Shown piece by piece: positions 53,684 through 55,105 of a stretch of 64,000 nucleotides of DNA. The position numbers and the translations under genes are program-made. Every line of letters starts with the position of its first letter. The first letter of the stretch is position 1. Source of the stretch: Acidovorax sp. sic0104. GTDB taxonomy: Bacteria; Pseudomonadota; Gammaproteobacteria; Burkholderiales; Burkholderiaceae_C. Below the pieces are notes generated by a model. The model saw nothing but the letters and a program-made list of their open reading frames with translations, made no database searches and was not told the DNA's origin. The stretch lies in the NCBI RefSeq assembly GCF_019219095.1, contig NZ_JAHUWH010000003.1:186001-250000 (forward strand), written 5' to 3'.

Positions 53684-55105
53684 TCAGCCGCTTGGGCGGC
53701 CAGCGTCGGGAAACGAGAAGTATTCCACAGCCAGCCGGGCCACCGGCGCGCCATGCTCCTGCACGAAGTGCCCCGCATCGGGCAGCACGGTGGGCGCAGA
53801 GCAGCCACGAATGTGGCGCTGCAGTTCGTGCATGGTGGCGGGGCCCAGCACCGGGTCCCGGGCACCGATGACCATCAGGCTCTGCCCTTGCCACCGGTGC
53901 TGCCAGAAGTCGCGCGCCTGGCGGGACAGCGCCGCGCCTGGGGCGTCCACCGATGCCGGAACGCGCTCGGGGAAGGCGCGCAGCGCCGCGCGGTAGCCCT
54001 TGTCGGGGAAAGGCGCGTCGTACGCCGCGCATTCCGCCGCAGACAGGTGCGGATTGCCGCGCAAAAGCAGGCGCCCCACGCCATACAGGGGCTTGTCGCG
54101 GCACATAGCGCGCCAGTCGACAAATCCGGCCGGCAGCGGCGCATCGCCCGTGGCGAGCAGCGTGTTCATCACCAGCAGGGCTGCAAAGCGCTCCGGGCAG
54201 GCCATGGGCAGGGTCAGGCCCAGGATGCCGCCCCAGTCCTGCACCACCAGCACCACGTTGCGCAAGTCCAGGCGCTCGATGAGCTCCAGCAGCACCTGGC
54301 GGTGCCATTCGAACTGGTGCGCCGGCTCCTTCTTGGGCTTGTCGCTCCTGCCAAAACCGATCAGGTCGGGCGCCACGACCCTGTCGCCAGCGGCCAGGAA
54401 AACCGGCAGCATGTGCCGGTACAGGTAGCTCCATGCCGGGTTGCCGTGCAGGCACAGCCAGGTGCGCGGCGCATCCACGGGGCCTTCGTCGAGGTAGTGC
54501 ATGCGCAGGCCCGCCAGGCTGGGCAGGTCGCTCACGTACCGCGGCGCCCAGGGGTAGCCCGGCAGGTGGGCAAAGGCCGTGTCCGGGGTGCGCAGCGCGT
54601 CGTCGCGCAAGGGATGGCGGGCGAATGCATCGGCGCGCTGCTCGCGGCGCCGCTCGCCAAAGAAGGTGGTGAGCAGCGCGCTGCATTCGCCCGCCAGCAC
54701 CCCTCCCTGCACGGCTGTCTGGTGGTTGATGGCGGCGTGCGCGAACAGATCCAGCACCGAACCCGCAGCGCCCGTGCGGGGCTCCGTGGCGCCATACACC
54801 ACGCGCGCCAGCCGCGAATGCAGCATGGCGCCGCTGCACATGGCGCAGGGCTCCAGCGTGACGTACAGCGTGCAGCCGTCGAGCCGGTAGTTGCCCAGGC
54901 GCTGCGCAGCAGCGCGCAGGGCGACGATTTCGGCGTGGGCTGTGGGGTCTTTGGCCTGAACGGGGGCGTTGCGGCCTGTGGCGATCACCTGGCCGTCCTT
55001 GACGACCACGGCGCCCACGGGCACTTCGCCGGCGTCGCCCGCGGCCCGCGCCTCGGCCAGCGCCAGGCGCATGCCTTCTTCGTCGCTCGAGACTGCTGCT
55101 GTCAT
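53684..55105 (-). CDS. tadA: tRNA adenosine deaminase TadA fused to a haloalkane-dehalogenase-like alpha/beta hydrolase
   Basis: A 473-residue fusion. Residues 1-155 are TadA: zinc and catalytic residues H57-A-E59, then PCAMC with C87 and C90. It converts the wobble adenosine of tRNA-Arg to inosine. Residues 175-473 are an alpha/beta hydrolase of the haloalkane dehalogenase type: [13 protein letters not shown] (220-232, oxyanion Asn), nucleophile D290 followed by W291 in VVQDWGG, acid D417 in GARDPVLG, and base H446 in [10 protein letters not shown]. No stop or frameshift separates the halves. It lies in a leftward run with a small membrane protein and LdcA. The dehalogenase activity is inferred from motifs; the physiological substrate is unknown. 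Confidence 0.93.

Follow-up and report, generated by a model that had tools for sequence, protein, structure and literature searches.

Why should an essential tRNA-editing enzyme carry a haloalkane dehalogenase at its C-terminus? The question is raised by a gene of Acidovorax sp. sic0104 located in a stretch of 64,000 nucleotides (contig NZ_JAHUWH010000003.1, positions 186,001 to 250,000; the whole stretch is called the window hereafter). TadA is essential and usually a lone enzyme, with about 160 residues in E. coli; in the window, it is joined in frame to a hydrolase. The comparison of relatives described below leads to the reading that a captured dehalogenase probably became a non-catalytic part of TadA and that dehalogenation became optional—an explanation that we favor with some reserve.

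A sequence-only reading of this DNA had described a single frame with tadA and a dehalogenase, both active sites being complete. This is borne out: the frame is open over 473 codons and encodes 473 aa comprising a complete TadA and a complete dehalogenase. The strand, which that reading did not state, is minus (55105 to 53684). The gene features the following parts:

53684..55105, minus strand: whole fused gene tadA-HLD, 473 aa
54641..55105, minus strand: TadA domain, residues 1-155 (NCBIfam TadA match over 5-159)
54929..54937, minus strand: TadA motif HAE, residues 57-59
54836..54850, minus strand: TadA motif PCAMC, residues 86-90
53714..54601, minus strand: haloalkane dehalogenase domain, residues 169-464 (profile match and solved relatives)
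54437..54448, minus strand: HGNP, residues 220-223
54233..54238, minus strand: D290-W291, presumably nucleophile and halide-binding residue by their roles in DhlA
54113..54115, minus strand: cap Trp W331
53855..53857, minus strand: catalytic acid D417
53768..53770, minus strand: catalytic base H446

Residues 5-159 match the NCBIfam TadA equivalog NF008113 with 205 bits (cut-off 150) and contain both TadA zinc motifs, HAE and PCxxC; residues 169-462 match the haloalkane dehalogenase model PRK00870 with 328 bits (cut-off 265). The best solved relatives of the dehalogenase half by sequence are 2xt0 (DppA) and then the 1edb/1b6g group, which we take to be DhlA; DhlA and DppA presumably represent haloalkane dehalogenase subfamily I. 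The residues that we take to define this subfamily—an Asp nucleophile, the Trp next to it, a cap Trp, an acid Asp, and a base His—are all present (D290, W291, W331, D417, and H446). With the full set of catalytic residues in place, the dehalogenase of the window's own lineage is probably also active. A search of the window's genome revealed no further full TadA, the other deaminase-like matches being partial (about 100 residues at 38-41%). The plus strand is also open over this region, with a frame of 468 aa that is taken for a shadow of the high-GC gene. A frameshift or chimeric assembly is ruled out by the same fusion in 80 named loci of other genomes at 66-90% identity, and an assembly artefact also by its presence in single-contig genomes (e.g., G190, G104, G004, and G254).

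The state of the active site was compared among relatives by reading the tadA frame in 187 fused loci and the window, the loci having been chosen by hand and not drawn at random. A protein is called live if D290, D417, and H446 are all present and dead if this triad is lost. Freed of duplicate pairs, the count is 182 distinct fused proteins: 109 live and 73 dead. Two loci are kept out of it: L177, which runs off its contig, and L118 (genome G053), which has an in-frame stop within the appendage with similarity continuing beyond the stop; this may be a loss of very recent date or, given the fragmented assembly, a sequencing error. TadA residues H57, E59, C87, and C90 are intact in 187 of 187 rows. 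In the live proteins, where D290 is present in 109 of 109 by definition, W291 occurs in 107 and W331 in 109, and N222, W291, and W331 together accompany the triad in 106. The dead set retains D290 in 5 proteins, N222 in 2, W291 in 6, W331 in 23, D417 in 15, and H446 in 10, with H220 of the HGNP motif present in 72. Most dead proteins also lack the cap and the C-terminus, the minimum length being 333 aa; deletions in the shortest have removed the cap together with most of the C-terminal part. Twenty of the 73 are at least 440 aa long, among them L019 (Verminephrobacter) and L020 and L023 (Acidovorax), in which the loss is confined to the nucleophile or little more. Proteins of dead length in named species, listed by length with the active-site residues read from the loci instead, are those of Alicycliphilus denitrificans (358 aa), Comamonas flocculans (339 aa), Rhodoferax koreense (362 aa), and R. 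ferrireducens (397 aa).

Both states are found in 9 of the 63 fused genera sampled, with 32 genera dead only and 22 live only; in one of the mixed genera, g104, both live rows lack W291. On a tree of the retained parts, the live/dead label changes 12 times, and an approximately unbiased (AU) test on a quick tree rejects a single clade of all dead rows (p=0.0019); L019, L020, and L023, which are among the 73 dead rows, are in none of the trees. To judge by these sequences, the dehalogenase active site has been lost more than once with TadA intact. Nor was the enzyme replaced as a rule: 66 of 70 dead whole genomes have no match besides tadA at E<=1e-20 (counted by eye, with at most 5 candidates per genome scored; G036, G054, G195, and G215 have further matches), and therefore the dehalogenase is mostly not replaced. 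Tethering or co-expressing a catabolic hydrolase, which the sequence-only reading had offered as a reason for the fusion, cannot hold as a general reason, given both these genomes and the 73 of 182 proteins that lack the triad and keep the domain. The same reading had held that a catalytically dead second domain would speak against it. Such domains occur in many relatives and not in the window, where D290 and H446 are present, and they make the case more interesting, not weaker. Because the passenger has lost its active site in many members yet is retained, a different, non-catalytic job of the domain is suggested.

What the dead copies retain is concentrated in three segments:

54584..54613, minus strand: linker motif PLRxDALRTP, residues 165-174, near-invariant in fused proteins
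54314..54349, minus strand: basic loop, residues 253-264
53972..54016, minus strand: stretch retained in dead copies, residues 364-378

At 122 appendage positions, conservation in the live proteins is at least 95%; 40 of these stay at or above 80% in the dead proteins and 45 drop below 30%. The retained set comprises the linker 165-174, the strand-loop GFGxSDKPK, H263, H268, and the stretch APFPDxGxRAxxRA, in which G370 is kept by 71 and A377 by 70 of the 73 dead proteins. Residues P165, R167, and D169 are present in 105-106 of 109 live and 72 of 73 dead proteins; in 19 standalone dehalogenases, added by mafft --add, positions 165-170 are mostly gap. (The window copy, L001, is dropped from the conservation, standalone, and charge comparisons, in which the live rows include 5 duplicate pairs.) Compared with these 19 rows, the retained residues peculiar to the fusion are P165, R167, D169, A170, K258, K259, H263, G370, R372, and A377; the standalone counterparts are Asp (74%) or Glu (16%) at 259, Tyr at 263 (63%), Arg at 370 (58%), Lys at 372 (95%), and Arg at 377 (63%). 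The loop 253-264 has a mean net charge of +2.1 in live and +2.3 in dead proteins versus −0.6 in standalone enzymes. The ratio of nonsynonymous to synonymous differences (pN/pS), a relative value here, is in dead pairs (n=33) 0.41 for TadA, 0.53 for the linker 154-176, 0.61 for residues 177-281, 0.90 for the nucleophile region, 0.82 for the cap, 0.38 for residues 363-380—the lowest of all, and below the cap in 33 of 33 pairs—and 0.71 for residues 381-464. The corresponding values in live pairs (n=15) are 0.375, 0.53, 0.27, 0.25, 0.37, 0.225, and 0.51. AlphaFold still builds, as a prediction, the compact core of the mini-domain in eroded form, and the alpha/beta-hydrolase core is found in the eroded relative P0124. 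Residues 165-174 and the loop after SDKP are near-invariant yet predicted to be flexible. The linker of about 20 residues that the sequence-only reading had placed between the halves is there as claimed, with only 165-174 near-invariant and the remainder variable. Within TadA itself, the fused-specific changes that passed the cut are V35, G92, and L95 alone (L127, L172, and L183 being omitted from the unfused set); with so few changes, and with an unfused sister group that may itself be the derived one, no interface can be read. Across the alignments, core and fused-specific residues are seen to be selectively retained in dead copies.

The age of the fusion follows from its spread and its neighborhood. 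The search of the Comamonadaceae that had been proposed was rightly directed: the fusion recurs in family genomes and in the 80 named loci, including Acidovorax, Hydrogenophaga, Polaromonas, Ramlibacter, Rhodoferax, Limnohabitans, Curvibacter, Verminephrobacter, and Simplicispira; the TadA search covered 80 of 159 genomes selected for it. A match at E<=1e-20 is present in 294 of 300 family genomes, and full fusions, shortened fusions, standalone dehalogenases, and unfused TadA are intermixed (in both cases, among the matches listed). The fusion as an order-wide trait is rejected, with one genome outside the window's family in a sample of 120 genomes of the order, 4 of which belong to that family. 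This both-half match, L266 in G301 (family code f3), could be a transfer, a nearby lineage, or a mixed assembly. A TadA tree was computed for 162 genomes (37 live, including the window, 70 dead, 2 cut short, and 53 unfused; these numbers are not frequencies). In this tree, a single group takes in 50 of the 53 unfused rows, and the distribution of fused versus unfused needs 3 changes. The gene downstream of tadA in the window is

52621..53625, minus strand: presumably an ldcA-like carboxypeptidase (used in the gene-order comparison)

and, counting loci with at least 300 bases downstream, ldcA follows in 49 of 52 unfused, 32 of 36 live, and 63 of 70 dead loci. The tadA tree and the common downstream ldcA therefore place the entry of the dehalogenase between tadA and its old neighbor ldcA; the fusion is old, occupies one and the same locus across the family, and arose there essentially once. 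As for a possible source, the closest standalone dehalogenase found is L196 (G042), with 65% identity to the fused domain; it may descend from the donor of that domain. Genome G042 also has an unfused TadA, L172, placed within the fused group of the TadA tree.

The favored explanation would, hence, run as follows. In an ancestor within the family, a gene of a subfamily-I haloalkane dehalogenase would have been captured between tadA and ldcA and attached, in frame, at the 3' end of the tadA gene. Not long after this capture, the domain would have assumed a non-catalytic task for TadA: either contact with tRNA or with the TadA dimer, made by residues 165-174 and the loop that follows SDKP, or help in the folding of TadA. 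Dehalogenation would then have been a dispensable extra, still selected in lineages such as that of the window and lost elsewhere; where it was lost, the domain would have been pared down to the core that is needed. We infer a non-catalytic role of the appendage that was taken on before the losses of the active site. Contact of the fused protein with tRNA is possible. A more specific version is put forward tentatively, and we would not count on it: the wobble deaminase took the dehalogenase into service as an accessory domain that contacts tRNA or the dimer, the function of the dehalogenase changing with or soon after fusion and the basic loop and linker motif becoming fixed before the active-site losses, so that living species preserve the steps from an enzyme to a non-catalytic domain on an RNA-editing protein.

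Several points weigh against this explanation. The trees are weakly supported, with starred inner branches numbering 11 of 159 in the TadA tree and 19 of 104 in the retained-parts tree, and the starred branches alone force just 3 changes of the live/dead label. Three unfused rows (L127, L172, and L183) sit within the fused group of the TadA tree, and therefore the domain can be lost; L127 looks like such a later loss because its congeners are live. The mean net charge of the whole domain is −1.9 in live, −0.1 in dead, and −3.2 in standalone proteins, i.e., near neutral overall in the fusion with one loop alone clearly basic; this is, therefore, no typical RNA-binding domain. The linker 154-176 as a whole is not specially constrained, its pN/pS of 0.53 lying above that of TadA in dead and live pairs, and dead domains evolve faster than live ones (0.61 versus 0.27 over residues 177-281); with synonymous sites near saturation in high-GC pairs, only the contrast between such ratios counts. 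Low scores in the predicted local distance difference test (pLDDT) may reflect thin alignments (64 and 76 rows) as well as flexibility. Finally, folding support and tRNA contact, both candidate tasks of the domain, are indistinguishable here.

The alternative that survives best is itself a version of the favored explanation, and its probability is contained in that of the latter. By a constructive neutral ratchet, the C-terminal helix of TadA would have become dependent, for folding or solubility, on the core attached to it, and RNA would not be contacted. The retained residues are largely the fold core together with residues 165-174, and the mini-domain is predicted to fold compactly. Taken alone, however, folding dependence leaves unexplained the charge reversal in the loop after SDKP (Asp or Glu to Lys at 259) and the invariance of stretches predicted to be flexible; we regard it as possible but somewhat doubtful. 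Less probable still, and on balance unlikely, is a bifunctional enzyme with decaying copies, in which an always-expressed partner provided a steady supply of dehalogenase and the domain, once its substrate was gone, decays and has not yet been removed. The company that N222, W291, and W331 keep with the live triad and the low live pN/pS over the nucleophile region and cap mean that activity is probably selected in many lineages, and the short dead forms resemble successive deletions. Decay, however, would not spare the same approximately 40 positions across 73 divergent dead copies, nor the fused-specific K258 and G370 (71 of 73 each), and it does not fit residues 363-380, which in dead pairs are as constrained as TadA and below the cap throughout. 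A new catalytic or ligand-binding function of the dead domain, built from the retained polar residues H220, D247, D255, H263, and H268 (present in 69 to 73 of 73 dead proteins), is improbable: all except H263 are also found in 95-100% of the 19 standalone dehalogenases, where we take their equivalents not to be catalytic, so that membership in the fold core is the simpler account, and many dead proteins have lost most of the cap. Two separate proteins made by internal initiation or cutting of the linker, an option of the sequence-only reading that the partly flexible prediction for the 20-residue linker might favor, are scarcely credible given near-invariant residues 165-174 and the lack of any conserved start codon from residue 150 to residue 231. 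The best candidate there, M202, although ATG in 74 live rows, coincides with the beginning of a predicted strand, and dead rows exceed 30% start-like codons at position 171 only (32%).

Further observations concern the surroundings of tadA and related gene pairs. Directly upstream of tadA in the window lies an open reading frame of 90 aa (55113-55385, minus strand) with an N-terminal hydrophobic stretch; among the 161 related loci whose sequence extends far enough, 27 have a similar frame upstream of tadA. The locus L127/L275 (G130) encodes a TadA of 159 aa with no recognisable dehalogenase remnant adjoining, on a contig that stops about 130 bases past the gene; other sampled members of the genus have full fusions, and this looks like a complete secondary loss of the dehalogenase half. 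Many TadA proteins of the unfused sister group carry a C-terminal tail with an IPTGEA/IPTGDA-like motif (e.g., L132, L142, L145, L152, and L157). On a plasmid of the haloarchaeon Halomarina sp. BCD28 (L293, 2992-4419), a nucleoside deaminase gene is preceded on the same strand, at a distance of 63 bases, by a gene for a haloalkane dehalogenase, i.e., the same two kinds of protein in the order reversed relative to the fusion. The eroded protein P0124 matched 272 plasmid records, none of which covers 80% of it.

Pseudo-enzyme domains are a known kind; new here are the pair of TadA and dehalogenase and the graded series from live to eroded forms. In the open literature searched, subscription papers lying mostly outside it, no paper on a TadA-dehalogenase fusion was found, and passages of PMC11658234 make no mention of a deaminase. 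Source annotations are mostly plain TadA; one Ramlibacter record reads "putative bifunctional protein : haloalkane dehalogenase", and the full fusion has, therefore, already been seen by annotators. With plain TadA names this common and 73 of 182 fused proteins devoid of the dehalogenase active site, annotation calls for caution. Copies that are live, half-dead, or pared down exist side by side, even in a single genus, and offer a natural series for the passage from an enzyme to a non-catalytic domain; a foreign appendage on TadA across a family raises the question of what bacterial wobble editing needs.

Three known systems can be compared. With TadA, the window protein shares the HAE and PCxxC motifs and the profile match; the fused proteins differ by a foreign C-terminal appendage of about 170 to more than 300 residues. 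With the haloalkane dehalogenases of subfamily I (DhlA, DppA, and DpaA), it shares the nucleophile Asp, two Trp, acid Asp, base His, and the whole domain. It differs from them by being fused to TadA and by PLRxDA, KK after SDKP, G370, and A377, which are fused-specific and rare or absent in standalone enzymes; in addition, the active site is missing in 73 of 182 of its relatives. ADAT3 is the catalytically dead partner in the tRNA deaminase ADAT2/ADAT3, which is a structural match here. The likeness is general only—a catalytically dead partner serving an A34 deaminase. In ADAT2/ADAT3, however, the dead partner is a deaminase paralogue on a separate chain, whereas in the fusion an unrelated hydrolase takes that place within a single chain.
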